From: Chloroflexota bacterium
Lineage (GTDB): Bacteria > Chloroflexota > Dehalococcoidia > Lucifugimonadales > UBA826
Reading direction: 5' to 3'
Assembly (NCBI GenBank): GCA_002717465.1
Contig: PBDQ01000035.1
Location: 1-32,128 of the forward strand
Length of the DNA stretch: 32,128 nucleotides
Part shown: in pieces, positions 1 to 27,009 of the stretch
How the letters are laid out: each line of letters begins with the position of its first letter
Position numbering within the stretch: the stretch's first letter is position 1
Translations under genes and position numbers: made by a program
The notes under the pieces: generated by a model
Told to the model about the DNA's origin: nothing
Database searches by the model: none
What the model saw: the letters and a program-made list of their open reading frames with translations, nothing else

Positions 1-585
1 ACTATGGATCAACGTAATGCTTACGGCGGGCAATCTAAAGGACCAATCCCAGTAGATGATCCTTGGGGAGCTTTTGCAGATGACCAACTAGGACTTATGA
101 GCCATCTGGGAATTGAAAAGTTTGGGTTCATGGGATTCTGCATTGGGGGACCTTTCGCTCTTAAACTTATTGAGCGAGCACCAGAAAGAGTTACCGCGGC
201 GGTACTGTGCCAACCAGTCGGACACAACGCTGAATTCCCTGATTCCATGTATGATTCTGGGAGAGATCTTTGGGCTCCTGAATTACTTAGTCAGCGTTCT
301 GACCTGAATATGGATCAATGTAATGCATACTTAAATAATTTGTATCGCATAGAGCCAAATGCCGACTTTGTATACAGTGTGTCACGAGACTTTGTTAGCA
401 ATTGCGGTACGCCGATTTTAGTAATGCCAGATAACACCCCTTCTCATTCCTATGAAGCTGCAATTGAAGTAGCAGAGCTTGCACCTGGAGCAGAATTAAC
501 AGTTTACCCGTGGAAAGAACAAGAAGACATTAAAGCTGATACTATAAATCAGGTACGTCAATTCTTGTCTACTCACCAATCTTAA
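1..585 (+). CDS. alpha/beta hydrolase, 5'-truncated, Cys nucleophile
   Basis: C-terminal part (about 193 residues visible) of an alpha/beta-hydrolase-fold enzyme; the reading frame is open to base 1, so the ATG at base 4 is probably an internal Met and the cap and oxyanion strands lie upstream. The nucleophile elbow reads G-F-C-I-G-G (Cys 46 counted from that Met), so the nucleophile is Cys rather than Ser, as in dienelactone hydrolases. An Asp in V-M-P-D-N and a following His (P-S-H-S) are candidates for the rest of the triad. The enolase-superfamily gene starts 17 bases downstream on the same strand, so the two are probably co-transcribed. Family assignment is secure. The substrate (ester, lactone or enol-lactone) is unknown. 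Confidence 0.8.
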   Translation, partial: TMDQRNAYGGQSKGPIPVDDPWGAFADDQLGLMSHLGIEKFGFMGFCIGGPFALKLIERAPERVTAAVLCQPVGHNAEFPDSMYDSGRDLWAPELLSQRSDLNMDQCNAYLNNLYRIEPNADFVYSVSRDFVSNCGTPILVMPDNTPSHSYEAAIEVAELAPGAELTVYPWKEQEDIKADTINQVRQFLSTHQS

Positions 586-602: not shown

Positions 603-1643
603 ATGAGCTTAATAACTGATATCAAAGTTGAAATACCAGACTATAACCATATGAGCCAAGTTATGGTTTATGTAACATCTGAGTCTGGGCACGTAGGCGT
701 AGGTGAAGCCTGGTGGGGCATACCAAGCGCTGATAACCCTGGTTCAACTTCAATACCAATAGCTAACGTGATAGAGCACCTGCTAGCCCCTAGGTTAATC
801 GGCAAATCATCGCGAACTATCGAAAAACATTGGTTCGACTTATGGGACTATGGCTATAGATATGCAGACGAAGGAATATTCTTGATGGGACTATCTGGAA
901 TAGATATAGCCTTGTGGGATCTACTTGGCAAAGAGTTAAACACATCCGTCTGCCAACTCTTGGGAGGACCTGTCCATGAAAAAATCCCTGGATATGCTAG
1001 TCTCCCAGCCTTACGAGACCCAGAAGTTGTACTCAGTGAAGTCAAGAGAGCTATGGATGCTGGTTTTTTCGCGGTCAAACTGCACGAGTTAGATCCAATA
1101 CATGTACATAACATCCGCAGAGAGTTTGGAAATGACCTACACATTATGGTAGATGTGAACGGTCACTTCAACAAAATAGAAGCAATCGAAGTAGGGAAAG
1201 AACTAGCCAAAGGTAATGTAACTTGGTACGAAGAACCTGTCCGTCCTATGAGAGATCATGCCGCTATCAAAGAAGTGGGAGACCGAGCAAATGTGCCGAT
1301 AGCTGCAGGAGAGAATGAATATACATTAAAGAACTTTGAACAGATTCTACAGTCCAAAGCTCTCACTTATTTACAACCTGAAATAACCAAAATCGGAGGA
1401 ATAACTGCAGCAAAACGCATCACAGGCCTTACGGAACTTTATAACACAGCTTTGTCCCCTCACAATATGAGAATTGGTCCTGCATTGAGCGCTTCCATAC
1501 AATGGGGATTTAACTCACCTATGACTGCTTGGCAAGAAGTACCATGGGTTAGATACGAATTTGCCGCACAATACAAATTGCCGGCTGTAGAAGATGGATA
1601 CGTATTGCCTCCAACGGAACCAGGAATAGGTTTAATAAAGTAA
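603..1643 (+). CDS. enolase-superfamily (mandelate racemase/muconate lactonizing) enzyme
   Basis: 346 residues, normal length for the mandelate racemase/muconate lactonizing enzyme group: N-terminal capping domain (about 1-115), then a Mg-dependent TIM barrel that abstracts the alpha-proton of a carboxylate substrate. Visible metal ligands are D184 (V-D-V-N-G), E210 or E211 (Y-E-E-P) and E237 (A-G-E-N). The second-strand catalytic motif is K159-L-H161 instead of the usual K-x-K. The strand-6 Asp of the His-Asp dyad reads Q-P-E260, followed by K263-I-G-G, and the strand-7 base is H287 (S-P-H-N). It follows the alpha/beta hydrolase by 17 bases and ends 3 bases before a convergent gene. It could be a racemase or an acid-sugar dehydratase; the altered motif means the reaction cannot be named. 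Confidence 0.88.
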   Translation: MSLITDIKVEIPDYNHMSQVMVYVTSESGHVGVGEAWWGIPSADNPGSTSIPIANVIEHLLAPRLIGKSSRTIEKHWFDLWDYGYRYADEGIFLMGLSGIDIALWDLLGKELNTSVCQLLGGPVHEKIPGYASLPALRDPEVVLSEVKRAMDAGFFAVKLHELDPIHVHNIRREFGNDLHIMVDVNGHFNKIEAIEVGKELAKGNVTWYEEPVRPMRDHAAIKEVGDRANVPIAAGENEYTLKNFEQILQSKALTYLQPEITKIGGITAAKRITGLTELYNTALSPHNMRIGPALSASIQWGFNSPMTAWQEVPWVRYEFAAQYKLPAVEDGYVLPPTEPGIGLIK

Positions 1644-1646
1644 AAT

Positions 1647-1943
1647 TTATCCTGTCTGCATAATTTCAGATATAACAAAAGTTCCATCTGTCCACGTAGG
1701 TTCTTCCTTAATGTGCTCCATTAATTGTGTGAATTGAGCACCTTGTTCAGGATCATTAGCATTCGATAAATGGGCTTCTTTACTTTCAAAGATTGCCACA
1801 CCAATCCAATCTTTATCTTCATCAGGATCCATTAGAAACCAAGCAACCATACCTTTTGGCACACGTTCTGATTGCTTGAACAGATCTAATAATAACTGTT
1901 CATGACCTTCTTTAACCTTAATGTTGAAAATAGTACCGTACAT
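1647..1943 (-). CDS. small dimeric alpha/beta-barrel (ABM-like) protein
   Basis: 98 residues beginning M-Y-G-T-I-F-N-I-K-V, with the beta-alpha-beta-beta-alpha-beta pattern and length of the ferredoxin-like dimeric alpha/beta-barrel superfamily (antibiotic-biosynthesis-monooxygenase-like or EthD-like). The ATG start is supported by a GAGGAG ribosome site a few bases upstream (1948-1953 on the plus strand, read in reverse). It is convergent with the enolase-superfamily gene and separated from the threonine synthase by about 110 bases. No catalytic residue can be recognised. Members of this superfamily are cofactor-free monooxygenases, haem-degrading enzymes, isomerases or stress proteins, so function is left open. 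Confidence 0.65.
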   Translation of the reverse strand: MYGTIFNIKVKEGHEQLLLDLFKQSERVPKGMVAWFLMDPDEDKDWIGVAIFESKEAHLSNANDPEQGAQFTQLMEHIKEEPTWTDGTFVISEIMQTG

Positions 1944-2052
1944 ATAAACTCCTCAAAACGTTTTAATTTATACTCGTGTATATATTAATACAGTAAATAT
2001 TACTGTTAATCTAACAATCTCTCAAAATTATATCTATGTGTTAATTAATAAC

Positions 2053-3174
2053 CTATATGTAAAGATTATCTTTCAAACCAAAACCAGTCACAGCTACTAG
2101 CACGCTTTCTTTTTTTGCAATAATTCCATCCCGAATCAAATATTCCAACCCTGCAAATGCAGATGAAGATGTTGGCTCACAATATATTCCATTCTCTTGA
2201 GCCAAAATCTTCTGCCATTCTAAAATAACTTCGTCATCAACTGCGGCGGCATGCCCTCCTGTCTCCAGTAGAATTTCTCCGATTAATTTTGACCGAGGAG
2301 GATTACTAACTGATATACCTCCAGCGACAGTGATTCCAATAGGTTCTTCCTTGCGATTACCTGAAAACAGGTTAACCAACGGCTTAACAGCAGAAGCTTG
2401 CACCACATGCATCTTAGGCATTTTTGATATAACACCTTTAAAAATAAGTTCTTTGAACCCTAACCAGGCACCAATATATAAGCTTCCATTACCTACCGGC
2501 ATAATTATATGTTCTGGCATTTCTCCCAAATTATGTCTTGCAATTTCATAAGCAAATGCTTTAGTGCCTTCTAAAAAATATGGGCTCAATTTATGGGCCC
2601 CGTACACGTATCCCTTTTCGTCTACAAAATCAGAGGCAGCGTCTGTAACCATTTCCCTCGTTCCTTCAATCTTGTGTGCAATTGCTCCATATACTGATAT
2701 CTGATCTAATTTTGGTTGGGGCGCAGAGCGGGGTACAAAAATATGGGCTGTGATACCTGCTTTACCACAATAAGCAGCAACCGATGATCCTGCATTCCCA
2801 GAAGAATCCTCTACCAAGTTAGCAATATTAAATCCTTTAGCTACAGAAATCATCATTGCAGTTCCTCGATCTTTAAAGGATCCTGTGGGATTCATGAATT
2901 CTAATTTGGCAAATATATTTTCGCAGGGTAACCGTGACCCCAATTTATCCATTTTTATTACTGGAGTGTTTCCTTCACCTAAACTAACAAGTGCGTTACA
3001 GGAATAAACAGGAATTTCCATGTGGGGGTTTGATGAAATTTCTCCGTATTTAACCAATAACGGTTCCCCACATACAGTGCATGCTAACAATCGCATATCA
3101 GGCGGAAAGGATGCTCCGCAACTTGAACAATAGAGCGATATATCTTTACGAATTGATGTTGAGACTTCTGACAT
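2053..3174 (-). CDS. thrC: threonine synthase-like PLP enzyme with N-terminal Zn ribbon
   Basis: 373 residues, fold type II PLP enzyme. An N-terminal zinc ribbon (C16-x2-C19 and C32-x2-C35) precedes the catalytic part, as in many bacterial threonine synthases. The PLP lysine is K101 in N-P-T-G-S-F-K-D-R-G. S-S-G-N-A-G (124-129) binds the substrate carboxylate, and a glycine loop V-G-N-G-S holds the PLP phosphate. The family reaction is O-phosphohomoserine to threonine plus phosphate (EC 4.2.3.1). The ATG start lacks a clear Shine-Dalgarno, but starting later would cut into the Zn ribbon. It is divergent from a Zn-ribbon gene and stands apart from other threonine-pathway genes, so a related lyase or deaminase role cannot be excluded. 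Confidence 0.85.
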   Translation of the reverse strand: MSEVSTSIRKDISLYCSSCGASFPPDMRLLACTVCGEPLLVKYGEISSNPHMEIPVYSCNALVSLGEGNTPVIKMDKLGSRLPCENIFAKLEFMNPTGSFKDRGTAMMISVAKGFNIANLVEDSSGNAGSSVAAYCGKAGITAHIFVPRSAPQPKLDQISVYGAIAHKIEGTREMVTDAASDFVDEKGYVYGAHKLSPYFLEGTKAFAYEIARHNLGEMPEHIIMPVGNGSLYIGAWLGFKELIFKGVISKMPKMHVVQASAVKPLVNLFSGNRKEEPIGITVAGGISVSNPPRSKLIGEILLETGGHAAAVDDEVILEWQKILAQENGIYCEPTSSSAFAGLEYLIRDGIIAKKESVLVAVTGFGLKDNLYI

Positions 3175-3230
3175 TCAAAATTAAATCATGTTTTTTTTGC
3201 GTTGTTTTTTTATGTTATGTACCCGACCTT

Positions 3231-3272
3231 TATCATTATAATAGGTTTTAGATTCTAAGTGGTATATATAAT
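3231..3272. promoter_or_regulatory. candidate divergent promoter (-10 elements)
   Basis: Between the divergent threonine synthase and Zn-ribbon genes there is a TATAAT on the minus strand (3235-3240) and TATAAT on the plus strand at 3267-3272, the latter ending 18 bases before the ATG at 3291. No convincing -35 hexamer accompanies either box. AT-rich DNA gives such boxes by chance, so this is a weak call. Confidence 0.3.
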
Positions 3273-3290
3273 CCCACAAGGTTAATTGCC

Positions 3291-3506
3291 ATGAAACATA
3301 CAGTGTCATATGCCTGTGACAAATGTAGAAATCCTTCTTACGAAGAAGGCGACATGAGAGTCACAGGCGGATTCTTAACTAAAATTCTTAACATTCAAAA
3401 TCGTAGGTTCACCTTTGTATCCTGCACAGAATGTGGCTACACAGAATTCTACAAACGTCAAAACTCTGGTGTTATTGCTAACGTCATAGACCTGTTTACT
3501 AATTAA
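3291..3506 (+). CDS. DUF2082-type Zn-ribbon protein
   Basis: 71 residues with two Cys pairs, C-D-K-C near residue 9 and C-T-E-C near residue 45, separated by a segment containing V-T-G-G-F-L-T-K-I-L-N-I-Q-N. This layout, and the following G-Y-T-E-F-Y-K, matches the small predicted nucleic-acid-binding Zn-ribbon family (DUF2082, YpzJ-like). Full length for the family. An AAGG stands about 8 bases before the ATG. It is a single gene, convergent with the ThDP enzyme gene 7 bases away. The biochemical role of the family is not established. Confidence 0.75.
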   Translation: MKHTVSYACDKCRNPSYEEGDMRVTGGFLTKILNIQNRRFTFVSCTECGYTEFYKRQNSGVIANVIDLFTN

Positions 3507-3513
3507 GGTCTAT

Positions 3514-5181
3514 TTATAATGAACCGTCTATAACAATATCTAATAGTACAGGCTTATCCAATTTAGACGCCCGAACCACTGCATCTTTAATATCTTCTGG
3601 ATCTGTAATTCTTTCAGATTCCATACCCATACTTTTAGCTATAGCCGCCATATCAAATGGACTAGGAAAATCCGAATAAGGTAAACTACCACCTGCAGGT
3701 TCGACATTCAATATGTCCTGTTGATAGATATTAAAATTCACTTTTAATACCCTATACATACCATTATTGAGAATTACAAACACGCAAGGTATATTGTCAT
3801 TTACCGCAGTCCAGAGACCTTGAACGGTCATCATCGCTGAACCATCCCCTATTAGCCCAAATACTTTCCTGTCTGGATACCCACATTGGGCACCCATTGT
3901 GACACCTATCCCTCCGCCAATCGATTGTCCTCTGTATCCTACAATGTCGCCTCGTTCTATACCTTCTAGATACTCTCTTACAATTGCCCTATTACTAATG
4001 GAATCATCAACAACGACCGCATTTTCAGGTAACCCCGCTACAAATTCATGCATCATGCGAGCCACTGACATTGGTTTATCATTCCATTTGTTTTTCGTGC
4101 TCTCAACAAAAGAATCTTGTTTGTACTTTTTTTCATCCAATGTTCGTTGCAATCTTTTCTCAATAATAGAAGAATCAATAGTCCTCATTTTGTCAGAAAC
4201 ATTATGATTCAGTTCCTGTAGACCCATTTTACAATGGGAAATAATTCCTATATTCGTAGGTTCTGATTTCCCTATGTTAACTGCGGAGGAATCTATATGT
4301 ATCAATGTAGATTCTTCGTTTAGAATCACATCCCCCCAATAAAACAGTTCTTCAAATGCATTCATACCTACAGCAATCACTGTGTCACAGGCTTTTAAAG
4401 ATTCTCTGTTTGCAGAATTACGCAAATTCAATATTCCTAGATATTGTTTATGGGTCGTTGGGAATGAGACTTCTGCTCCTCTAAACTGATACGCGGGCAA
4501 GCCGAGCATTTCAGCCAATCTCACCGCCTCACCAACCGCATCATCATCAGAGACACGATCTCCTACTATTAGAACAGGATTCTCTGCTTTAATTAATGAA
4601 TCGGCTGCCTGTTCTATGCTATCTAGATCAGGTCGTATTTTATCTGATGTGTATCTCGAAGGTATGATATTCATCTCTGCAGAATCCTCTAAAGCATTCG
4701 CTGTCAATCCAATATACACCGGCCCTTTAGGATGGGTATTTGCCTCATTAAAAGCTCTCCTGATTGCCCCAGGTATTTGATCTGGATGAGTTAGCTGAAT
4801 TGACCATTTTGTTACAGGCTTTACCAGCTCTGCTAGGTCTGTAGTACCTTCAACTACTTTACGGATGTCGTAGTTGGCAGAAGTGACAACCATTGGAGTC
4901 CCTGAATTTAAAGCGTCGAGCATCAAAGCTATTCCATTGGCAAGGCCACTGTCTACGTGCAAGCTTACCAAAGAAGGTTTTTGAGTTGCACGCGCGTAAG
5001 CTTCACCCATTCCAACCGCAACGCTTTCCTGAAGAGCCATTATATAAGTGAATTCAGGATAGTCAGGCAGCATATCAATTATAGGGGCTTCACTAGTCCC
5101 TGGATTCCCAAATATATGAGTTACTCCCTCTGCTTTAAGCATTTCTAACAAAGCCATTTTGCCTGTCATAATTTCTGCCAT
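3514..5181 (-). CDS. ThDP-dependent enzyme, benzoylformate decarboxylase-like
   Basis: 555 residues, three-domain thiamine-diphosphate enzyme of the acetolactate synthase/pyruvate decarboxylase family. The N-terminus resembles benzoylformate decarboxylase: I-F-G-N-P-G-T (23-29), the ThDP-activating Glu E52 in A-L-Q-E, and H75 in S-L-H matching that enzyme's His70. The cofactor motif is G-D-G-S (445-448) to N-N (472-473). The position of the decarboxylase's active-site Ser26 is Thr29, and no His is visible near 276-284 where its His281 would fall, so the substrate probably differs. The start is backed by a GGAGGA ribosome site just upstream. It lies about 50 bases behind the NylB-like gene, as the last gene of the minus operon. 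An acetolactate-synthase-type ligase or another 2-oxoacid decarboxylase is possible. Confidence 0.85.
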   Translation of the reverse strand: MAEIMTGKMALLEMLKAEGVTHIFGNPGTSEAPIIDMLPDYPEFTYIMALQESVAVGMGEAYARATQKPSLVSLHVDSGLANGIALMLDALNSGTPMVVTSANYDIRKVVEGTTDLAELVKPVTKWSIQLTHPDQIPGAIRRAFNEANTHPKGPVYIGLTANALEDSAEMNIIPSRYTSDKIRPDLDSIEQAADSLIKAENPVLIVGDRVSDDDAVGEAVRLAEMLGLPAYQFRGAEVSFPTTHKQYLGILNLRNSANRESLKACDTVIAVGMNAFEELFYWGDVILNEESTLIHIDSSAVNIGKSEPTNIGIISHCKMGLQELNHNVSDKMRTIDSSIIEKRLQRTLDEKKYKQDSFVESTKNKWNDKPMSVARMMHEFVAGLPENAVVVDDSISNRAIVREYLEGIERGDIVGYRGQSIGGGIGVTMGAQCGYPDRKVFGLIGDGSAMMTVQGLWTAVNDNIPCVFVILNNGMYRVLKVNFNIYQQDILNVEPAGGSLPYSDFPSPFDMAAIAKSMGMESERITDPEDIKDAVVRASKLDKPVLLDIVIDGSL

Positions 5182-5232
5182 GGTTCCTCCTATTTACAAT
5201 GCCCAGAATACCTCTGGTTTATATAATATTAT

Positions 5233-6414
5233 TTATGTGATTGCCTCAATGATACTAAGACATGCATTGGACATAACTTTTTTCTGGTCAGGATCCAACG
5301 GATATTCTTGAGATGAAAATTTAGCTATAACTATTTTGTTATTAACATCAACAAACATATATTGCCCGTAAATACCTACACAGAACACTATTGGATTTGT
5401 TTGATGCAACGTATACCACTGGTTCCTATAAGTAATTGGCATGCCATTGAAATATTCGGCGAAGTTTCCTGACTCCCAAGCTCTCTTATCTCCGTCAAAT
5501 AATTGACCTAACCATTTGTTTGAAATTATTTGTTCTTTATCTCTATATCCCCCATTAGCTACCAAATTGCCTAGCAATGCCAAATCTCTCAATGACATAT
5601 TTATGCCGCCTGCTGTTCTAGGTGAACCAGATGAATCGATGGTTACAAAGGCAGAATCATTTGCGCCTATAGGTTTCCATAACACTTCTGACATCACCTC
5701 TTGAAATGTCTTGCCAGTAGAACGCTCTATCACCCATCCCAACAGATCACTGTTAGGAGAAGTATATTTAAAGATCTGCCCATGTGGGTCAGGTCTTCGA
5801 CCCATACCTGCCAAAAATAACTTTAAATCCTGTTGACCGTTAATATCATTCTCTGGCGGATCCCAATTAGTTGACCTTCTATAGGCTATCATTGGTCCAG
5901 AGGTCGCATAGTAATCTTCGTCAAAATCCACCGCCGCAGTCATATCCAAAAGATTCTGAACTGTGCAATCGGAATACCCTGAATCCTTTAATTCGGGCAA
6001 ACACTCTCCTATAAGAATATTGGCATCTATTTCTTTTCTATCAATTAATATGCCTGTTACTAATCCCAATACTGATTTTGAAACAGACATCAATATATGC
6101 TTCGAATTTTTATTCATCCCATTCAGATATCTTTCATAAACAATTTCTTGATCTTTAATTACAATGAAACCATCAGTGAAACTTTGATTAAGAAATTGAT
6201 CAAAACTGATTTCTGAACCATCATTGCCTTGAACTACAATATGTTCTATAGGTTGTAAGTTTTCAGGAAGACTCCATGTGTTCGAGGGATCATTTTCAAT
6301 ATCTACTGATTCCACCAATTCAGAAACATGCTGAAATGCCCATCTGTTATATGGAGGAAACCTCCAGTTAGACAAATCTACTTTAGACTTAATATCATCT
6401 TTATTATCGTTCAA
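5233..6414 (-). CDS. serine hydrolase of the beta-lactamase/NylB type
   Basis: 393 residues, beta-lactamase-like serine hydrolase (COG1680 family). The S-x-x-K motif is S110-V-S-K113 and the Tyr of the second motif is Y217 (K-Y-T-S), very close to the Ser112/Lys115/Tyr215 spacing of 6-aminohexanoate-dimer hydrolase NylB and family VIII esterases. The pair Y168/Y169 sits where NylB has Tyr170. No signal peptide is seen, so a cytoplasmic location is expected. The start is TTG (6412-6414), directly abutting the RraA-type stop codon, with a G7 run a few bases upstream serving as ribosome site; the next Met (about residue 100) would remove the front of the domain. Translational coupling with the upstream gene is likely. 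Likely substrates are amides, lactams or esters; the specific one is unknown. Confidence 0.85.
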   Translation of the reverse strand: MNDNKDDIKSKVDLSNWRFPPYNRWAFQHVSELVESVDIENDPSNTWSLPENLQPIEHIVVQGNDGSEISFDQFLNQSFTDGFIVIKDQEIVYERYLNGMNKNSKHILMSVSKSVLGLVTGILIDRKEIDANILIGECLPELKDSGYSDCTVQNLLDMTAAVDFDEDYYATSGPMIAYRRSTNWDPPENDINGQQDLKLFLAGMGRRPDPHGQIFKYTSPNSDLLGWVIERSTGKTFQEVMSEVLWKPIGANDSAFVTIDSSGSPRTAGGINMSLRDLALLGNLVANGGYRDKEQIISNKWLGQLFDGDKRAWESGNFAEYFNGMPITYRNQWYTLHQTNPIVFCVGIYGQYMFVDVNNKIVIAKFSSQEYPLDPDQKKVMSNACLSIIEAIT

Positions 6415-7128
6415 TTACACCCCCCCTGATTTCAGCCATTTATCAAATTCCAATTTCGTATTAGGATCCGTAGGAGGATAAAGCCCAAATATAGGATGAT
6501 TGTTCTTTACACGTTCCTCAACAAAATTCTCAAAAATCGTCATCTCATATGCTTCAAATGCAACTTCATTACATAGCTCCTGAGGTATTACTATCACACC
6601 ATCTCCGTCTCCCACTACTATGTCACCTGGATAGACAGCGACTCCGCCACATCCGATAGGTACATTTAGGTCAACGGCATGGTGCTTAGTCAAATTAGTA
6701 GGAGCAGAAGCGCTAGATTGGTATGCATGAAAATTCAATTTAGCAATATCGGCAGAGTCTCTGAAACCACCGTCTGTAACTATTCCTGCCGCACCTCTTA
6801 CCATTAACCGAGTAACCAATATATTCCCTGCTGATGCAGCACTGGCATCACCCCTACTATCAATAACCATAACATGGCCAACAGGGCATTCTTCTACTCC
6901 CTTCCTCTGAGGATGTTTCGTATCCTCAAATACACTCAAAACATCTAAGTCTTCTCGAGCAGGGATATAGCGTAAAGTATAGGCTTCTCCTACCATAGAA
7001 CAGGAAGCCTCGTTCATAAGTTTGGGGCCCATCATAAACGCATTCCGTAACCCTCGCTTAAACAACACTGTCGAAAGAGTAGCAGTACTAACACTCTTTA
7101 GTTTTTCTCTATTATCGTTTGTAAGCAT
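6415..7128 (-). CDS. RraA-family aldolase-like protein
   Basis: 237 residues of the RraA/HMG-aldolase family (4-hydroxy-4-methyl-2-oxoglutarate or 4-carboxy-4-hydroxy-2-oxoadipate aldolase type). Family landmarks are G-N-I-L-V-T-R-L (about 101-108), the divalent-metal and substrate pair R123-D124 in D-G-G-F-R-D-S, and the C-terminal strand pair G-D-I-V-V-G-D-G-D-G-V. These enzymes cleave 2-oxo-4-hydroxy acids to pyruvate or decarboxylate oxaloacetate, and R123/D124 are the residues expected of the catalytic branch rather than the RNase E inhibitor branch. It sits between the amidohydrolase (17-base gap) and the NylB-like gene (no gap), which supports a catabolic role. No clear ribosome site precedes the ATG. 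Confidence 0.85.
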   Translation of the reverse strand: MLTNDNREKLKSVSTATLSTVLFKRGLRNAFMMGPKLMNEASCSMVGEAYTLRYIPAREDLDVLSVFEDTKHPQRKGVEECPVGHVMVIDSRGDASAASAGNILVTRLMVRGAAGIVTDGGFRDSADIAKLNFHAYQSSASAPTNLTKHHAVDLNVPIGCGGVAVYPGDIVVGDGDGVIVIPQELCNEVAFEAYEMTIFENFVEERVKNNHPIFGLYPPTDPNTKLEFDKWLKSGGV

Positions 7129-7145
7129 ATCTATCTAAACCATAG

Positions 7146-8162
7146 TCATTCATTGATGTTATAAACTTTCACCGCTGTGTCATGAAACATGGCAGCTCTT
7201 TCAGATTTCGAGTAGCTTTTAGACAATATCTTAAATGCGTTATATAGAACATTGAAGGAATAAGAAACTTTATCAGGAGGGAAATTACATTCAAACATGC
7301 ACCTTTCAGGACCAAATTTTTCAATGCAATACTCGAGAAGTGGCGCTAAATCTTCAGCTAGACTTATCGAATCAATAGGCTGTTCTCTGGTATACCAGTC
7401 AAAACCATACCTAGGTTGTCCTAACCCCCCTAATTTCATATATACATTAGGACATTCTGCCAATGTATCTATATTTCTTTTCCACTCAGGAATAACTTCA
7501 TCATCCCGATGACCGTAAGGGCCAACTCTTAAAAGTCCCCCTATGTGGTTAGACACAATTGTCAAATCTGGAACTGCATTTGCAAAAGCAGCTAACTCTG
7601 GAAGTTGAGGAAAATAAACGGTGTTATCCAAAGTGAGCCCTTTTTTTGCAAGTATCTTAGCGCCTTGTTGAAATTTGGGATCAAGTAATTGTTCTTTCTT
7701 AGCTCGATTTTCTACTTCTGGATGGCTGTCCCAACCACATGCATACCTAATGCCTCTAAATCTGTTTGGGCTGGCTGCTTGTAAAGCATCCAAAACTACT
7801 TCAACTTTATCTCCCAAGTTCAAATCAGCCTTTCCAACTATTGCAGCAGCAGCTTTATAATCTCCATATAAACCGCTAGCACTCGCAGCAGCCAATCCCT
7901 GTACAAATTCAACTTCTCCAACAGAACGCAATTCCACCGGACCATCCAATTTATACATAGCTGTTGTCTCTATGAATACCGTAGACTTAACGTTATGTCC
8001 ACTGCTTATATCTGCGATTAATTCATGCAGAAGATATCTTTGATATGGAATTCTGATCGATCTGTAATCCCAAAAATGATGATGAGGGTCACAAATAGGT
8101 AAATCAGGTTCAATCGTTTCTTCCTGTGTTAAAGCTAGCCACTCTAAATCCCCATACGGCAT
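7146..8162 (-). CDS. Amidohydro_2-family metal-dependent hydrolase
   Basis: 338 residues from the start chosen here. It is an amidohydrolase-superfamily TIM barrel of the Amidohydro_2/COG3618 type: the strand-1 metal motif is D-P-H-H-H-F-W-D near the N-terminus, N-H-I-G on a later strand and F-E-C-N-F-P-P-D near the C-terminus in place of the common S-N-F-P. Family members hydrolyse lactones (fuconolactonase, PDC lactonase) or decarboxylate aromatic acids. The start at 8162 (M-P-Y-G-D) is preferred because GGAGG lies 5 bases upstream; the open frame extends to ATG codons at 8174 and 8183, which have no such site. It is the first gene of the minus operon, divergent from the FMN oxidase gene. 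Lactone hydrolysis is the most likely role. Confidence 0.85.
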   Translation of the reverse strand: MPYGDLEWLALTQEETIEPDLPICDPHHHFWDYRSIRIPYQRYLLHELIADISSGHNVKSTVFIETTAMYKLDGPVELRSVGEVEFVQGLAAASASGLYGDYKAAAAIVGKADLNLGDKVEVVLDALQAASPNRFRGIRYACGWDSHPEVENRAKKEQLLDPKFQQGAKILAKKGLTLDNTVYFPQLPELAAFANAVPDLTIVSNHIGGLLRVGPYGHRDDEVIPEWKRNIDTLAECPNVYMKLGGLGQPRYGFDWYTREQPIDSISLAEDLAPLLEYCIEKFGPERCMFECNFPPDKVSYSFNVLYNAFKILSKSYSKSERAAMFHDTAVKVYNINE

Positions 8163-8226
8163 AATTCCCTCCATCAACGTCATTTATACAACTAGCTAAA
8201 TATTACCATTTATGTAAAATTAAGCA

Positions 8227-8244
8227 TAACTAAAATCATAGTTA
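8227..8244. promoter_or_regulatory. palindrome in divergent catabolic promoter
   Basis: TAACTA, six bases, then TAGTTA: a perfect 6-6-6 inverted repeat in the 119-base gap between the divergent amidohydrolase and FMN oxidase operons. Size and placement suit a regulator controlling both operons, for example of LysR or GntR type. No regulator gene is adjacent, and short palindromes are common in AT-rich DNA. Confidence 0.3.
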
Positions 8245-8281
8245 ACAACGAAATCATTATATTGAAGGGAGTAACCAGTTA

Positions 8282-9355
8282 ATGGAGCAATTTGTTACCA
8301 ATGAAGAAATCATCCAAAGAGCCCGACAGAATCTAGCAGACGGACCATGGAATTACCTAGTCGGCGCGACAGAATCAGAAACTACCATGAGGCGAAACCG
8401 TCTAGCTTTTGATCGGATAGCATTTCAACCTAGAGTACTAGTAGATGTTTCAACAGTTGATCTCACAACTTCCATACTAGGTTACAAAATTGATCTACCG
8501 ATAATGATGGCTCCCATTGGGTCACTACAGGTATTTCATCCGGAAGCCGCTACAGCAGTATCAAAAGCAGCGGAAGAGATGTCTACAATTCATGTTGTAA
8601 GTTCCGTTACACAACCTTCATTAGAAGAAACCGCGTCCTGTGCAGATAATACCAAGTTCTATCAACTCTATATCCACGGGGATTGGGAATGGACCAAAAA
8701 TATGATAGATCGCATTACAGAAGCAGGATATAAAGCTCTCTGTATTACTGTAGATTCCGCAAGTTACAGTATTAGGGAAAGACCTATGCTAAGCCGGTGG
8801 GTGCCTATGTCGAGAAGAAATCCTCCTGAACCTCATTGGCAAGCTTCGGTCACATGGGAAACTTTAGATATGATAAAGAATTATTGCAAGCTTCCTTTAA
8901 TAGTTAAAGGTATAGCTACGCCGAACGATGCCACACTGGCGGTAGAACATGGTGTGGACGTAGTGTGGATATCTAACCATGGAGGCAGACAGTTAGATCA
9001 TGGATTAGGAACTCTAGACATGTTACCTGCTATCAATGATGCCATAAAAGGTAAAACACAAATCGTGTTAGATGGAGGAATTCAACGAGGTAGCGATGTA
9101 GTCAAAGCAATAGCTCTTGGCGCAGATGCCGTTGCCATAGGTAAAATGCAAGGCTGGGGAATCGCAGCTAATGGTACTCAGGGATTGGTCAGATTGTTGA
9201 GTGTTCTTAGGCAAGAAATAGAAATCACCATGAAACTCCTGGGAGTTACTAATCTTTCATCCATCACAGACCAATATGTTTGCGAGGCCATGCCTACTAC
9301 AGAACCACACGAAATGAGTTCATGGGTTAACATGCCTAAGAATCGGATACAATAA
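8282..9355 (+). CDS. FMN-dependent alpha-hydroxyacid oxidase/dehydrogenase
   Basis: 357 residues, FMN TIM-barrel family of glycolate oxidase, lactate oxidase and mandelate dehydrogenase. Active-site landmarks are present: Y25 (W-N-Y-L), Y130 (Y-Q-L-Y), R166 (I-R-E-R), K209 (I-V-K-G), and H233 with R236 in S-N-H-G-G-R-Q-L-D. The FMN phosphate loop follows (L-D-G-G-I-Q-R-G, then A-I-G-K). It oxidises an (S)-2-hydroxy acid to the 2-oxo acid, passing electrons to oxygen or a quinone. A GAAGGGAG ribosome site lies 10 bases before the ATG. It is the first gene of the plus operon, with two DAO-family genes behind. The substrate cannot be read from sequence; its 2-oxoacid product would suit the ThDP decarboxylase of the divergent operon. 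Confidence 0.9.
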   Translation: MEQFVTNEEIIQRARQNLADGPWNYLVGATESETTMRRNRLAFDRIAFQPRVLVDVSTVDLTTSILGYKIDLPIMMAPIGSLQVFHPEAATAVSKAAEEMSTIHVVSSVTQPSLEETASCADNTKFYQLYIHGDWEWTKNMIDRITEAGYKALCITVDSASYSIRERPMLSRWVPMSRRNPPEPHWQASVTWETLDMIKNYCKLPLIVKGIATPNDATLAVEHGVDVVWISNHGGRQLDHGLGTLDMLPAINDAIKGKTQIVLDGGIQRGSDVVKAIALGADAVAIGKMQGWGIAANGTQGLVRLLSVLRQEIEITMKLLGVTNLSSITDQYVCEAMPTTEPHEMSSWVNMPKNRIQ

Positions 9356-9396
9356 TTCAAAAATACATAATTTATAGACCTTAGGAGTTATTACAT

Positions 9397-10545
9397 ATGG
9401 AAAACAAAACAGTCGTCATCATCGGTGGTGGCATAATCGGCAGTGCCATCGGCTTCCAATTGTCATCTCTAGGTAACAAAGTTGTGATAGTAGACAAAGG
9501 CCCTTTTCAGGAATCATGTTCGGCACATTCTTTCGCATGGGTGAATGCCTCCTCAAAAAGTCCGATCGGATATCACAGTTTATGCAGAACTTCTGTGAAC
9601 AAATGGCCTACATTCGCCAAACAGCTGGGTACAGAAGTAGGTCTAAACCTGAACGGCACTATCAAATGGGAAAACAGTGAAGAAGGCGCAGACTTAGCTA
9701 GGCAACGTGTAGAAACTCTACAATCCTGGAATTACCCTGTTCAAATAGTTGACGAAGATTTTATAAAGGCTAAAGATCCTTCAATAAACATTAAAAATAT
9801 GACCTTTGGGCAATATATACCAAATGAAGGTCATGTGGAACCTAAACGAGTTATAGACGCATGTCAATTCAAAATCAAAGAAAATGGTGGCGAAATCATA
9901 AACAGCTGTGCTGTCACAGGATTTCAAAAAGATGCTGGTAGCCAAAGGATAACGGGGGTAATTTCCTCAACCGGAACCATATCTTGCGATACTGTAGTGA
10001 TCGCAGCAGGTACAGGAACACAGCAGCTTGCTGATTTACTTGATATATACATCCCATTACTAGAAAGTCCCGGCGTAGTAGCATGGACAGATCCCCAACC
10101 TAAAACATTGCATGGGATTATTATGAGCCCGGCTATCAACGACGGAACGTACCCAGGGAATGATGAACAATCTGAGGTTCACATTCGCCAAAGAGTAGAC
10201 GGTTCATATCAAATGGTCAATGAACGAGGTGGAATCGGGAATCATCATGAACAAAATGATGATTCTCAGGAAAAGGCGGAGAACTTATTACTCCACTTAA
10301 CTGAATATTTCCCACAATTGAAGACAGCTACGGCAATAGCCGAACCAGTTGGATATCGTCCAATGCCTGAAGACAAGTTCCCAGTCTTGGGATACGACGA
10401 GAGTTGGGGGAATGTATACATTTCAGTAATGCATAGCGGGGTAACTTTAGCCGCATTAGTCGGTGAATACGTAGCCACAGAAATCAACTATGACGTTCAA
10501 ATTCCGGAACTCGAGGAATATAGGCCTGCAAGGTTCAAAAAATAA
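9397..10545 (+). CDS. DAO-family FAD-dependent oxidoreductase (copy 1)
   Basis: 382 residues, D-amino-acid oxidase/glycine oxidase (DAO) family. The FAD Rossmann motif I-I-G-G-G-I-I-G-S is at the N-terminus, with D-K at the end of the second strand binding the ribose, and the C-terminal FAD-binding strand reads M-H-S-G-V-T-L-A. AGGAG about 10 bases upstream supports the ATG. It lies 41 bases after the FMN oxidase gene and 23 bases before its own paralogue. Members oxidise amino acids, N-methyl amino acids (sarcosine-type) or hydroxy acids. The unusual S-F-A-W-V-N-A segment shared with copy 2 replaces the common residues after the second FAD strand. Substrate unknown. Confidence 0.85.
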   Translation: MENKTVVIIGGGIIGSAIGFQLSSLGNKVVIVDKGPFQESCSAHSFAWVNASSKSPIGYHSLCRTSVNKWPTFAKQLGTEVGLNLNGTIKWENSEEGADLARQRVETLQSWNYPVQIVDEDFIKAKDPSINIKNMTFGQYIPNEGHVEPKRVIDACQFKIKENGGEIINSCAVTGFQKDAGSQRITGVISSTGTISCDTVVIAAGTGTQQLADLLDIYIPLLESPGVVAWTDPQPKTLHGIIMSPAINDGTYPGNDEQSEVHIRQRVDGSYQMVNERGGIGNHHEQNDDSQEKAENLLLHLTEYFPQLKTATAIAEPVGYRPMPEDKFPVLGYDESWGNVYISVMHSGVTLAALVGEYVATEINYDVQIPELEEYRPARFKK

Positions 10546-10568
10546 AATCATCTGGAGAATTGTTAGAT

Positions 10569-11750
10569 ATGACACAACCCAATAATATAGTTGTAATTGG
10601 TGCTGGAATAGTTGGCACATCTATAGCAGTTAATCTATTGCAATATGGATCTAAAATAACGCTCATCGATAAAGACACTCAGACTAATGGAGCATCCCGA
10701 CTTTCTTTCGCATGGATCAATGCTGCAGGGAAAACGCCATTTGATTATCATGATTTAAATAGGCGATCTATGGAAATGTGGCCAAGGTACGGTCAGTCTT
10801 TAGGAACTAACGTAGGACTAAAATTGGGGGGTACAGTCACATGGGAAACTTCAGATGATAGGGCAACAGCATTAATTCAGAAAGTTGAACGCGCTCAGTC
10901 ATATGGATATCCTATCAGGCTTGCCAGTCAATCCGAACTGCAAATTCACGAACCTAATTTAGTGATTGAAAATGTCAAAGCTGCTTCAATATGTGAAATA
11001 GAAGGGCAAGTAGAGCCACCAAGAGTCATCCAAGCAGCCATAGATAAGATAATCGAATCTGGCGGAGAAGTATCATTGGGCGAATCATTTGAAAGCTTCG
11101 AATTTGACGATACGAATCACCAAATTGTGGGAGTAAAAACAAATAACCGCACCCTGCCTTGTGACGTGGTAGTGATAGCAGCAGGCATAGACACGACTGA
11201 GATAGGATATAAAGCCAACACATTCCTGCCTCAGTCAACTAGCCCTGGGGTAGTAGTCAAAACCAGTCCAATGCCACCGCTGCTAAACGGAATAGTATAT
11301 GCTCCATCATTAGAAGAATATGGTAGAGAAGTGCATATGAAACAACTTATTGACGGTACATTCGTAATAGGAGAAGGTGAACAAAGTAGCAAAAATACAG
11401 ATGATTCAATCGACAACGCTAGAAGACTTGTAGAATTTGCCACCCAATACCTTCCTCAATTAGGTGACGCCGAGCCTAGGATTGAACCCATTGGATATAG
11501 GCCAATGCCATTAGATGGGTTTCCTGCAGTTGGGTTTGTCAAAGAAACTCCCAACGCATATATGGCTGTTACTCATAGCGGGGTAACTCTAGCTCCTTTG
11601 ATTGGAGAATTGGCATCAATTGAAATAACTCATGGGGTGTCGACTCCACAATTAGATGCATTCAGACCCAATCGCTTTAACCAAGATGGAACAGGTGGAA
11701 GAAAAGATTCTCCTAGTCACACTGATGATAATGGCCAAGGGATTCATTAA
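10569..11750 (+). CDS. DAO-family FAD-dependent oxidoreductase (copy 2)
   Basis: 393 residues from the ATG at 10569. It is a tandem paralogue of the gene before it, with the same domain order: V-I-G-A-G-I-V-G at the N-terminus, S-F-A-W-I-N-A-A after the second FAD strand, S-P-G-V-V in the middle, E-P-I-G-Y-R-P-M-P and T-H-S-G-V-T-L-A at the C-terminal FAD strand. An in-frame TTG at 10560 is only 2 bases from the GGAG and is rejected as start; the ATG lies 11 bases from it. The last 20 or so residues are polar and look disordered. Its stop overlaps by 4 bases the stop of the convergent membrane-protein gene. Similarity to copy 1 is roughly half the residues by eye, so the duplication is old and the substrates have probably diverged. 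Confidence 0.85.
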   Translation: MTQPNNIVVIGAGIVGTSIAVNLLQYGSKITLIDKDTQTNGASRLSFAWINAAGKTPFDYHDLNRRSMEMWPRYGQSLGTNVGLKLGGTVTWETSDDRATALIQKVERAQSYGYPIRLASQSELQIHEPNLVIENVKAASICEIEGQVEPPRVIQAAIDKIIESGGEVSLGESFESFEFDDTNHQIVGVKTNNRTLPCDVVVIAAGIDTTEIGYKANTFLPQSTSPGVVVKTSPMPPLLNGIVYAPSLEEYGREVHMKQLIDGTFVIGEGEQSSKNTDDSIDNARRLVEFATQYLPQLGDAEPRIEPIGYRPMPLDGFPAVGFVKETPNAYMAVTHSGVTLAPLIGELASIEITHGVSTPQLDAFRPNRFNQDGTGGRKDSPSHTDDNGQGIH

Positions 11751-12781
11751 TCACGATTAACAGCTACCAATTTACGTAATGACAAATTATTTGACCAAAG
11801 TAACAACTGGCCCAATATAGTCACAGGTATGATTAAAATACCATGAACAAGTAGTGCGAATGCTGAACCAACGGACCTATCGATAGACCCCCCAGTGTTA
11901 AAAACTACCACTTCACGAGCTGTTAACTCAAATATTCCAACTCCTCCAGGAGCAGACGGGATAGAACTTACCAAATTTGCTAGTGATGTAACTAGAGTCA
12001 TACTGGAGAACAGCTCTACATAATTGAAGTCATGGAATTGCATAAATCCCATAGCGTATCCAATAATGCAAAAAACTGTTATCTCAGATATCCAAACTGG
12101 TAAAGATGCCAAGAATAATAACAGTAAACTTTTAGGGCTCTTAACTGCTGTCAGTCCTGATTCCACCAAATCACTAAAATCAATTAACTTATCGTTTAAC
12201 TTAGCAGGAGCTAGGATAGTTAAAACGGTGGTAGTTTTTTTAATTAAAACTGGATTGTGAGCAGAATACACCATTAATACAAACATGATCAGGAATACAC
12301 CAATGAGTATAGAAAATCCTAAAGTCAAATATTGCTGAGTGAGTCCTGTCAGTAAAGTCTGCGCATTCAACGAGATTATAACTAATAAAAATCCAATCAA
12401 TACTACTGCATCAAGTATCCTTTCAACAAAAACAGTAACCAATACCGTGGTCTTACTAATATTATGTTTTGTCCCCAAGAAATAAGCTCGCACAAATTCA
12501 CCTATGCGCATCGGTAATATATTGTTCACCATATATCCAATGCACACTGCCTGAAACAAGTTATAAGGTGAAATACCTTGGAAGTTACTTAACAACATTT
12601 TCCATCTAAGCGTTCGAAACAGTAACGACAAGAAGTATATACCTATAGCTGGCATTAAAAAGCTTACACGCAAAGACGTAAAGGAACTAAGCATCCTATC
12701 GAATTCCGCGGTAGCCACGAAAAATATGAGGATCACCAAAGTGATTACTGACAATACTAGGTATTTCACATTTCTATCCAC
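11747..12781 (-). CDS. lysyl-PG synthase TM-like / flippase-like membrane protein
   Basis: 344 residues, predominantly hydrophobic with about 8 transmembrane helices. Family signatures of the UPF0104/COG0392 group (membrane domain of lysylphosphatidylglycerol synthase; AglD-like) are visible: F-R-T-L-R-W in the second helix, N-N-I-L-P-M-R-I-G-E-F-V-R-A, and S-I-P-S-A-P-G-G-V-G-I-F-E near residues 265-277. These proteins are thought to move lipid-linked substrates across the membrane; the synthetase domain is absent. The start is a GTG at 12779-12781 without a good ribosome site. It follows, on the same strand, a 236-base gap that contains the inverted-repeat element. Function is inferred from family only. 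Confidence 0.75.
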   Translation of the reverse strand: MDRNVKYLVLSVITLVILIFFVATAEFDRMLSSFTSLRVSFLMPAIGIYFLSLLFRTLRWKMLLSNFQGISPYNLFQAVCIGYMVNNILPMRIGEFVRAYFLGTKHNISKTTVLVTVFVERILDAVVLIGFLLVIISLNAQTLLTGLTQQYLTLGFSILIGVFLIMFVLMVYSAHNPVLIKKTTTVLTILAPAKLNDKLIDFSDLVESGLTAVKSPKSLLLLFLASLPVWISEITVFCIIGYAMGFMQFHDFNYVELFSSMTLVTSLANLVSSIPSAPGGVGIFELTAREVVVFNTGGSIDRSVGSAFALLVHGILIIPVTILGQLLLWSNNLSLRKLVAVNRD

Positions 12782-21798: not shown

Positions 21799-21937
21799 AA
21801 CATCCTCTCCTCAAGCAAATCTGCTTCATATAGTTCCTATTAAACCTTAATTAAACATTCTATTCAACTCCTATTTGTTGAAATGGTGAGATTTAATAGA
21901 GTAAAATCCTATCGTTTGAGAGGTGAATTCATTCATT

Positions 21938-22966: not shown

Positions 22967-22967
22967 T

Positions 22968-23522
22968 TTAACTCTGGACATAACCTACGAAATTTAATCC
23001 TCTAAATAGACCTTTATCATCCATCCCATAACCTACCAACCACAAGTCTTCATCTAGGCTGAACCCATAATAATCAGGGCCTATCAATACTTTTCGATTG
23101 ACAGTTTTATCTACTAACACAGCTATACTGGAAATTTGTCCTGTTAGACCTTCTAACAATTCTTTAATGCGGTATAGAGTTAATCCTGAGTCAAGAATAT
23201 CATCGATTACTAAGCAAGGAGATTCCATATCTAATCGTTTTTCGAAATCTCTAACCATTATGATATCTGGTTCTGTAGATTCGTAGGTATTGAAGTAAGA
23301 ACTAGACATTATCGGAATTACTTTCCATTTGCCTGGTGACAATATTTCCAGTTCTATGACTAATTTAGCACCGAACAAAAGAGCTCCAGTCAAAATAGGA
23401 ATAAGATTGACTACTTGTTGACTGGAATAAGCATCATCGATTTCCTCAGCAATACGTTTTATTGCTTGGTCTATATCTTTCTCTGACCATAATTCGGTTA
23501 TAGGACTTTGAACATCTGTCAT
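22968..23522 (-). CDS. hpt: hypoxanthine-type phosphoribosyltransferase
   Basis: 184 residues, purine phosphoribosyltransferase family. The PRPP-binding motif L-V-I-D107-D108-I-L-D-S-G-L-T-L (104-116) is intact, the loop with L-T-G-A-L-L-F near 44-50 binds pyrophosphate, and V-D-K-T-V-N supplies the base-contacting Lys. It makes IMP or GMP from hypoxanthine or guanine and PRPP. GAGAGGA stands upstream of the ATG. It is the last gene of the nucleoside ABC-transporter operon, 4 bases behind the second permease, so uptake and salvage are likely co-expressed. Base preference (hypoxanthine, guanine, xanthine) is not determinable by eye. Confidence 0.88.
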   Translation of the reverse strand: MTDVQSPITELWSEKDIDQAIKRIAEEIDDAYSSQQVVNLIPILTGALLFGAKLVIELEILSPGKWKVIPIMSSSYFNTYESTEPDIIMVRDFEKRLDMESPCLVIDDILDSGLTLYRIKELLEGLTGQISSIAVLVDKTVNRKVLIGPDYYGFSLDEDLWLVGYGMDDKGLFRGLNFVGYVQS

Positions 23523-23526
23523 AAAC

Positions 23527-26942: not shown

Positions 26943-26989
26943 TACAAACAAAAAAATAGGCGACCGTATTAAATACAGATCGCCTATTT
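26943..26989 (-). terminator. intrinsic terminator or attenuator after the binding-protein gene
   Basis: On the minus strand a 10-bp perfect stem (26980-26989 with 26954-26963), extended inside by G-T-A-T/A-T-A-C, is followed at once by TTTTTTTGTTTG. It begins 20 bases after the binding-protein stop and ends at the ATPase ATG. Partial read-through would give more binding protein than membrane complex, the usual ratio for ABC importers. Confidence 0.8.
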
Positions 26990-27009
26990 ACTATAGTATT
27001 ACCCTTAAA

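Follow-up and report, generated by a model that had tools for sequence, protein, structure and literature searches.

Three enzyme types that make up the mandelate pathway of Pseudomonas, an enolase-superfamily enzyme, an FMN-dependent 2-hydroxy-acid oxidase and a benzoylformate-decarboxylase-like enzyme, lie close together on a contig from a marine Dehalococcoidia bacterium, raising the question of whether they act as a mandelate-like pathway or serve other chemistry. An earlier note on this 32,128-nucleotide stretch (the window, here always the whole stretch) had read the trio as the former, with a substrate that is probably not mandelate but another 2-hydroxy acid, released from an amide, ester or lactone.

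Gene layout and source of the contig

Searches with Pfam and NCBIfam profiles placed all eight enzymes named beforehand as intact open reading frames within positions 603–11750 (Table 1), including a full-length NylB-like hydrolase, in agreement with the families and places that had been claimed; the span of "about 9 kb" corresponds to 8.75 kb from the start of ENO to the end of FMN. Gene order was read directly from the sequence: a minus-strand arm (AMID-RraA-BLAC-ThDP, with successive gaps of 17, 0 and 51 bp) and a plus-strand arm (FMN-DAO1-DAO2) diverge, 98 bp apart. The start codon of BLAC is TTG, immediately 3' of the RraA stop. No confident consensus promoter was found in the divergent intergenic region, where promoter/terminator scan sites were no more numerous than in shuffled sequence. 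Because PALP sits on the minus strand between ENO and ThDP, the three enzymes do not form a single transcription unit. What holds together is instead the divergent seven-gene set at 3514–11750, and ENO lies outside it, past PALP. PALP itself, 339 bp downstream of ThDP and in the same order in loci L161 and L182, is an uncertain member of the cluster.

Table 1. Genes and intergenic region of the locus, in window coordinates.
Feature	Position	Strand	Basis and remarks
ABH, alpha/beta hydrolase, 3' part	4..585	+	PF00561; 17 bp upstream of ENO; truncated at window edge; complete ORF at L126:2854-3603
ENO, enolase-superfamily (MR/MLE) enzyme	603..1643	+	PF13378/PF02746 (MR_MLE N and C)
PALP, threonine-synthase-like PLP enzyme	2053..3174	-	PF00291; NCBIfam threonine synthase matches under cut-off
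ThDP, benzoylformate-decarboxylase-like 2-oxo-acid decarboxylase	3514..5181	-	Pfam TPP N/M/C; NCBIfam BFD top model
BLAC, NylB-like serine amide/ester hydrolase (predicted)	5233..6414	-	beta-lactamase family; PDB match to NylB
RraA-type aldolase/decarboxylase (PRK08245 subfamily)	6415..7128	-	NCBIfam NF006093
AMID, Amidohydro_2 / COG3618-type TIM-barrel enzyme, first gene of minus-strand arm	7146..8183	-	PF04909
Divergent intergenic region, 98 bp	8184..8281		gene coordinates
FMN, 2-hydroxy-acid oxidase/dehydrogenase	8282..9355	+	PF01070
DAO1, FAD-dependent glycine/D-amino-acid-oxidase-family enzyme	9397..10545	+	PF01266
DAO2, tandem paralog of DAO1	10560..11750	+	PF01266

A 331-kb contig from a metagenome-assembled genome (MAG) in another family matches the window at 98–99% identity. 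When the cluster arrangement was sought in the bin's own family, the ThDP orthologs there had different neighbours, which pointed to mis-binning; the contig has probably been assigned to the wrong bin. The case carries a caution: a gene neighbourhood from one MAG contig can belong to an organism other than its bin.

The enolase, FMN and ThDP enzymes

Mandelate racemase is marked by a K-x-K motif on beta-2 and a His-Asp dyad. At these sites ENO has K-L-H rather than K-x-K, and Q-P-E, with Glu replacing the dyad Asp. Its best NCBIfam model is galactonate dehydratase, top of all models at 154 bits and below the cut-off of 311, and its nearest PDB entry is 5olc. Seven genomes carry an ENO ortholog, and neither the listed positions nor the five neighbourhoods inspected place one close to FMN or ThDP; the ortholog in family f33 adjoins CoA-transferases, MmgE/PrpD and M20, and no sugar genes. 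Family scores, motifs and unlinked orthologs together suggest that ENO is probably a peripheral enzyme of dehydratase type and not a mandelate racemase.

FMN matches PF01070 at 353 bits (cut-off 24.9) and, in alignment, retains seven of seven catalytic residues of spinach GOX (Y24, Y129, D157, R164, K230, H254, R257). P. putida MdlB carries a long membrane-anchoring insert in its loop-4 region. This insert is absent from FMN, whose residues 174 to 188 align with GOX 174 to 210; its loop-4 region is ~22 residues shorter than that of glycolate oxidase and has no membrane segment. In the pocket, GOX A79 is replaced by Gly and W108 by Val, small residues of the mandelate-dehydrogenase type, mandelate dehydrogenases having been reported with "smaller residues" at these positions (PMC10153336).

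ThDP has three TPP domains, and its best NCBIfam model is benzoylformate decarboxylase (BFD), at 322 bits (321.9), below the equivalog cut-off of 493. BFD is also first in a PDB sequence search and the nearest fold to a structure model (TM ~0.77–0.82). The equivalents of BFD E47 (the activating Glu), E28 and H70 are retained, while the pocket is altered at three positions across 34 aligned sequences: firstly, S26 is Thr in all 34; secondly, H281 is Leu in 31 and Phe in three; thirdly, F464, a substrate contact in BFD (PMC6028569), is Asn in all 34, in a column that maps to a loop modelled with low confidence. S26T and H281L need not end decarboxylation, because BFD stays active with S26L or H281F, losing ~2.5- and 5-fold respectively (PMC6028569). 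In one family, ~30 of 50 genomes have an ortholog, at 61–67% identity and with the pocket changes invariant, and across the order the neighbours of these orthologs vary (gamma-glutamyltranspeptidase, CoA-transferases, MFS); ThDP may therefore have a role outside this cluster. CoA-transferase genes adjoin it in genome G159, and we considered a CoA-dependent 2-hydroxyacyl-CoA lyase, a candidate disfavoured because PDB, fold and NCBIfam all put BFD first.

As claimed earlier, then, the active sites of ENO and ThDP are unlike those of the mandelate enzymes, and a substrate other than mandelate is supported. The mandelate analogy holds for the FMN and ThDP steps only: conversion of a 2-hydroxy acid to a 2-oxo acid and then an aldehyde is the most natural reading of this pair, whereas the three-step version is not supported by ENO, with its separate position, unlinked orthologs and acid-sugar dehydratase-like scores. 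The note had also reported no aldehyde dehydrogenase. Indeed, the Pfam matches of the window include no NAD(P) type, but at 19483–21798 lies a gene for a xanthine-dehydrogenase/aldehyde-oxidase-family large subunit, beside IMPDH-family, HGPRT-like and BMP-ABC genes. This molybdenum hydroxylase is disfavoured as the missing aldehyde oxidiser, as its neighbours read as purine salvage.

Hydrolases, accessory enzymes and conservation

BLAC matches the 6-aminohexanoate-dimer hydrolase NylB in the PDB over its full length (E 2e-57, residues 13–387), bearing out its earlier label. It keeps Ser-x-x-Lys and the equivalents of Tyr170, a functional residue of NylB, and Tyr215 (S110, K113, Y217 and the EDY tyrosine aligned). 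The NylB triad is Ser-Lys-Tyr (PMC10858056), and BLAC is predicted to be a NylB-like amide/ester hydrolase. In three of the four plasmids inspected, relatives at 38–40% identity have genes for an amidohydrolase and a carbon-nitrogen hydrolase as neighbours; this context favours the proposal that a hydrolase releases the substrate.

The nearest solved structures to AMID, by sequence and by fold, are 4dlf/4do7 (COG3618 amidohydrolase), for a model with a mean pLDDT of only 65.5 that is weak in its N-terminal part; its sole NCBIfam match is the L-fuconolactonase model. AMID keeps D-x-H-x-H and the beta-6 His. The beta-8 Asp, present in 4dlf, is Asn300 in AMID and Asn in 34 of 34 aligned sequences, which sets this subfamily apart from COG3618 lactonases (L-fuconolactonase/LigI) and leaves its hydrolase activity not assured. 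RraA scores 315 bits against NF006093 (cut-off 208) and has the G-x-R-D active-site motif, GGFRDS aligning with AGVRDT of 3noj. Its relatives at 58–63% adjoin either a TRAP transporter and an IlvD/EDD dehydratase or gluconokinase-6PGDH and a chondroitinase-B-family lyase, sugar-acid contexts that fit a pathway other than the one we favour below. DAO1 and DAO2 are 40% identical, and 7fgp, a glycine/D-amino acid oxidase, is the nearest solved structure for both; in other lineages, relatives of DAO1 do not exceed 43%.

Another species of the genus has the order FMN-AMID-RraA-BLAC-ThDP-PALP-ENO-ABH as well, with 86–95% amino acid identity, on a contig that begins inside FMN, so that the comparison covers FMN onward without the DAO genes. 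The conserved arrangement is confined to this one genus (two species). FMN and ThDP orthologs are linked in none of the 14 other genomes having both. AMID (70%) adjoins ThDP (67%) in G159, ~130 bp apart, and adjoins FMN on the same strand in G091 and G102, at 79–91 bp; other genomes therefore pair genes of both arms. At the thresholds used, RraA was absent from 48 other family members searched and BLAC present in one of the 48, as a 27% match. A scan of a named genome collection found RraA only in the genus's two species and in three more distant relatives in other contexts, single-protein pattern scans catching close relatives only and possibly missing distant copies. Scatter in related genomes had been set as the refutation of co-occurrence: the order holds in two species, but outside the genus the genes are largely scattered. 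A trio this close, picked post hoc, is expected in 0.5–1.5% of random layouts (1.7-Mb genome, ~6 enolases, 14 ThDP genes, 1–3 FMN genes) and in ~8% in enolase-rich relatives; conservation in the second species is better evidence than this figure.

Candidate functions and significance

Our best explanation, held tentatively and at rather less than even confidence, is that 3514–11750 is a genus-specific peripheral catabolic island of marine Dehalococcoidia in which 2-oxo acids go to decarboxylation or aldol cleavage. On this view the chemistry is ordinary catabolism in an uncharacterised form. The sequence itself shows the gene families, their order, conservation across two species, the catalytic residues of FMN and BLAC and the ThDP cofactor-site residues; from these we infer the substrates, step order and joint action of the genes as follows. 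BLAC and/or AMID would cut an amide, ester or lactone to small acids; FMN would oxidise an L-2-hydroxy acid whose side chain exceeds that of lactate, and DAO1/DAO2 an amino acid, N-substituted or not, to 2-oxo acids; ThDP would decarboxylate a 2-oxo acid to an aldehyde, and RraA would split one where a 4-hydroxyl is present. ENO would be a neighbouring dehydratase-type enzyme. This explanation rests on the tight same-strand packing in both arms, the order kept in the second species and AMID's pairing with either arm's genes elsewhere, the complete FMN catalytic set with its small pocket, the E47, H70 and E28 equivalents of ThDP, the amide/nitrogen contexts of NylB-like relatives, and the Salipiger abyssi relative of FMN, 44% identical, that precedes ALDH-ThDP-ALDH genes. 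It is weakened by the unlinked FMN and ThDP orthologs, the varied ThDP neighbours, the sugar-acid operons of RraA relatives and the missing beta-8 Asp of AMID.

A non-phosphorylative sugar-acid pathway is possible, though on the unlikely side: AMID would open an aldonolactone, ENO would turn this by dehydration into a 2-keto-3-deoxy acid from the aldonate, RraA would split that acid into pyruvate and an aldehyde, and FMN would oxidise a derived 2-hydroxy acid of glycolate/lactate type, leaving ThDP and BLAC to side reactions. The galactonate dehydratase score of ENO, the COG3618 membership and L-fuconolactonase match of AMID, the RraA contexts and the COG4948 and COG3618 pathways proposed for cultured SAR202 (PMC10444878) point this way. 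However, ENO is in a separate transcription unit, unlinked to AMID, RraA or FMN elsewhere and without sugar genes in f33, the cluster has no sugar dehydrogenase, AMID lacks its beta-8 Asp, and the NylB-like hydrolase, two DAOs and BFD-like enzyme are not needed. Next, and unlikely, is that these are mostly unrelated genes in one small genome, with AMID-RraA-BLAC-ThDP the sole operon and the rest chance neighbours: the scatter in relatives and the non-negligible chance of co-location accord with this, but FMN-DAO1-DAO2 packing, the shared divergent region, second-species conservation and the AMID pairs argue against it. We think it improbable that the locus encodes a pathway not described before, where a NylB-like amidase, together with an Asn-variant COG3618-type enzyme, would act on a marine-DOM amide to free an amino acid and a bulky 2-hydroxy acid, both then becoming 2-oxo acids decarboxylated by a distinct order-wide BFD-fold family with an altered pocket. 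A pathway truly for mandelate or a substituted mandelate, with racemase, dehydrogenase and decarboxylase, is very improbable, despite the same three superfamilies, the Gly/Val FMN pocket and the BFD-like fold, given the K-x-H and Glu of ENO, the Asn at BFD F464, the sub-cut-off ThDP score and a window with neither an aldehyde dehydrogenase nor an aromatic-ring cleavage gene.

Compared with known systems, the locus resembles P. putida mdlABC in its closely placed FMN 2-hydroxy-acid dehydrogenase-family and BFD-fold enzymes, nearby enolase and small FMN pocket residues; it differs in its separate, dehydratase-like enolase, changed ThDP pocket, short loop 4, lack of aldehyde dehydrogenases and extra hydrolase, COG3618, RraA and DAO enzymes. 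Cultured SAR202 respond to fucose and rhamnose as well as to the corresponding lactones and acids, and COG3618 and COG4948 non-phosphorylative sugar-acid pathways were proposed for these bacteria (Lim 2023, PMC10444878). Such proteins in related marine Chloroflexota recall our locus, but here a single enolase gene and a single COG3618 gene accompany FMN, ThDP, DAO and NylB-like genes, and the cluster lacks the NAD(P)-dehydrogenase and the COG3836 aldolase of those pathways, in a source genome with only ~6 enolase paralogs. The likewise marine HAO-ALDH-ThDP-ALDH locus of S. abyssi plasmid pPABY1 (L187) places its FMN oxidase near a ThDP enzyme, which is only 26% identical to ours; it has two aldehyde dehydrogenases and, among its listed neighbours, no RraA, NylB or COG3618 gene. 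Rhizobial operons (Shinella, Roseateles plasmids) share a NylB-like hydrolase, 37–40% identical, adjoining an amidohydrolase gene, but that amidohydrolase is longer (~556 aa), with ABC transporter and carbon-nitrogen hydrolase genes and no FMN/ThDP partners.

SAR202-type bacteria are considered oxidisers of recalcitrant dissolved organic matter, but to our knowledge only a few of their substrates other than sugars and sugar acids are known. Should the cluster work in the way proposed, it would supply a set of enzymes to test on amides of hydroxy and amino acids. The ThDP family and the Asn-variant COG3618 enzymes are the more general assay targets.

Gene layout and probable origin of the window

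The eight enzymes named in the earlier note are all intact in the window (32,128 bp; GC 39.8%; no tRNA in its length), with their coordinates unchanged, and the gene identities are secure, with very little room for doubt. Both arms of the seven-gene cluster at 3514-11750 diverge from a 98-bp region between the amidohydrolase AMID and the 2-hydroxy-acid oxidase/dehydrogenase-family enzyme FMN: AMID, RraA, BLAC and ThDP follow one another at 17, 0 and 51 bp, and FMN, DAO1 and DAO2 at 41 and 14 bp. The enolase-superfamily gene ENO and the PLP-enzyme gene PALP are convergent. Judged from strand and spacing, ENO, FMN and ThDP would be spread over at least three transcription units.

Coordinates of genes and matching regions (window positions unless a contig is named)
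Feature	Location	Strand	Remark
ENO, enolase superfamily	603-1643	plus	17 bp past truncated alpha/beta hydrolase gene
PALP, threonine-synthase-like PLP enzyme	2053-3174	minus	339 bp past ThDP
ThDP, benzoylformate-decarboxylase-like	3514-5181	minus	
BLAC, NylB-like hydrolase	5233-6414	minus	
RraA, RraA-type aldolase	6415-7128	minus	
AMID, Amidohydro_2/COG3618 type	7146-8183	minus	
FMN, 2-hydroxy-acid oxidase/dehydrogenase family	8282-9355	plus	
DAO1, FAD-dependent DAO family	9397-10545	plus	
DAO2, FAD-dependent DAO family	10560-11750	plus	
LPG-synthase-like membrane protein (PF03706)	11747-12781		stop overlaps DAO2 end by 4 bp, opposite strand
Halogenase-like gene	17726-19426		
Putative purine gene group	19483-28269		
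ACR3-family transporter with FUR-family regulator gene	29745-31347		regulator gene nearby, convergent
Whole window	1-32128		matches G000:C33:1-30215 and G129:C17:298981-331048

The bin holding the window (G000, family f1; contamination 8.35%) carries this region twice, on C33 and on the window itself (C35), at 99.2% identity, and has an FMN ortholog of its own at C19:52918-53979 (65% identity). The two halves of the window match a 331-kb contig of a MAG from another family (G129, 'Chloroflexi bacterium isolate SP188', PBNM01000008.1; family f41, genus g74) at 99.4% and 98.4%. GC content does not discriminate on the question of binning. Most simply, the window is probably a contig of a g74 bacterium wrongly binned into an f1 genome; record names and enolase-rich relatives suggest a placement near SAR202.

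Elsewhere in the window, a flavin-dependent halogenase-like protein (CmlS/QhpG-type matches below cut-off) adjoins glyoxalase, 6-phosphogluconate dehydrogenase and transketolase genes. A xanthine-dehydrogenase-like large subunit without adjoining small subunits neighbours IMPDH-family, HGPRT-like and BMP-type ABC transporter genes, a group that reads as purine uptake and salvage. The ACR3-family arsenite efflux transporter scores above cut-off.

Conservation inside and outside the genus

A second g74 species, Dehalococcoidia bacterium UBA2588, shows the gene order of the window on a 130-kb contig; FMN-AMID-RraA-BLAC-ThDP-PALP-ENO-ABH (ABH, alpha/beta hydrolase) is common to both species at 86-95% amino acid identity, the second contig starting within FMN, such that the comparison there runs from FMN to ABH and stops short of DAO1 and DAO2. 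The co-occurrence in related genomes that the earlier note had proposed to check is therefore retained within g74, but the cluster breaks up outside it. In family f41, ~30 of 50 genomes have a full-length ThDP ortholog (61-67%), RraA above E 1e-40 is confined to g74, and BLAC occurs in g74 plus one 27% match. Outside g74, the only RraA relatives among 250 genomes of the order are at 35-39%, in three genomes. DAO1 has no relative above 43% outside g74. FMN orthologs (55-66%) were found in ~49 further genomes of 147 sampled; in none of the 14 genomes with both did FMN (>=55%) lie near ThDP (>=58%), and in two (G018, G113) they share one long contig but at least 174 kb apart. Seven genomes, from families f9, f18 and f33, carry an ENO ortholog (55-65%), none of these orthologs beside FMN, ThDP, AMID or RraA by listed position and in five neighbourhoods read.

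How much weight proximity can bear was estimated from random layouts (1.7 Mb with ~6 enolase genes, 14 ThDP candidates and 1-3 FMN genes). In 0.5-1.5% of trials, or ~8% for an enolase-rich relative, one gene of each kind came out as near to the others as in the window, so the closeness of the trio alone is weak evidence; more weight falls on the packed arms and on the second g74 species. A functional connection is best supported by pairs that join genes of both arms in other lineages: ThDP-AMID in G159 (67% and 70%; ~130 bp gap, same strand) and AMID-FMN in G102 and G091 (79-91 bp gap, same strand), each recurring pair probably a single event. The G159 ThDP relative also adjoins CoA-transferases and a MaoC-type dehydratase, a ThDP paralog in G065 lies close to AMID and adjoins an M20 peptidase, and relatives in f1 adjoin a gamma-glutamyltranspeptidase. 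Seen case by case, the presence of peptide- or amide-bond hydrolases close to genes of this ThDP family in several contexts is suggestive.

At L162:6369-13102, a ThDP-AMID pair has two family III CoA-transferases and a MaoC-type dehydratase upstream. At the f1 loci L041-L047 the ThDP ortholog adjoins a gamma-glutamyltranspeptidase-type gene (Pfam-tested in one); most of these loci also have a second ThDP gene that diverges from the ortholog and has a different enolase after it.

Enzyme properties

FMN is nearest in the PDB to lactate and glycolate oxidases. Aligned to spinach glycolate oxidase, it retains Tyr24, Tyr129, Asp157, Arg164, Lys230, His254 and Arg257; its loop-4 region is ~22 residues shorter and lacks a membrane insert. 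In the pocket, Ala79 is replaced by Gly (33/34 aligned sequences) and Trp108 by Val (29/34), and FMN should therefore accept a side chain larger than that of lactate.

ThDP is nearest benzoylformate decarboxylase (BFD) by sequence and by predicted fold (mean pLDDT 79.9), and scores 322 bits against the BFD model, below its 493-bit cut-off. Equivalents of BFD Glu47, His70 and Glu28 are retained. Ser26 is replaced by Thr in all 34 aligned sequences, His281 by Leu or Phe, and Ala460 by Val or Ile; Phe464, whose column falls in a low-confidence loop of the model, aligns to Asn in all 34. Since the changes Ser26Leu and His281Phe bring small losses in BFD (Yep et al., 2008, quoted in PMC6028569), ThDP is still likely to be a decarboxylase; an aromatic substrate is less likely.

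BLAC is related to NylB over its full length, with the Ser-Lys-Tyr triad and Tyr170 present. Its relatives on rhizobial-type plasmids (37-40% identity) lie, in three of four read, in operons that also encode an ABC transporter and an amidohydrolase, with carbon-nitrogen hydrolase genes near. Sequence and fold both place AMID among COG3618 proteins; because Asn stands at the position of the catalytic beta-8 Asp in 34/34 aligned sequences, a lactonase label is not justified. Genomes of f41 carry as many as six copies of this subfamily, in which the beta-8 Asn is invariant across AMID and 33 aligned relatives. The paralogs DAO1 and DAO2 lie in tandem, and their nearest structure is a glycine/D-amino acid oxidase.

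A candidate pathway

We consider it probable that all seven cluster genes serve one pathway. The best single reading, held tentatively, is that hydrolysis would be followed by oxidation by the FMN and DAO enzymes to 2-oxo acids, and these in turn by ThDP decarboxylation or RraA cleavage. It ranks ahead of a sugar-acid pathway, which we think rather unlikely. RraA is a clear PRK08245 subfamily member, and its nearest relatives found lie in sugar-acid gene settings. ENO scores highest against a galactonate dehydratase model, below that model's cut-off, with a K-x-H beta-2 motif and Glu at the dyad position. SAR202 group I genomes have expanded enolase-superfamily paralogs, mostly annotated or proposed as sugar-acid dehydratases (Saw et al., 2020, PMC6946804; Lim et al., 2023, PMC10444878); the probable source genome of the window is not enolase-rich. 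A neighbourhood assembled by chance, with the dispersal outside g74 on its side and the recurring pairs against it, is likewise unlikely and ranks next. A true mandelate pathway, to which the earlier note had likened the trio, is very improbable. On the preferred reading of hydrolysis, oxidation and decarboxylation, the cluster would be a lineage-specific variant of already known catabolic chemistry.
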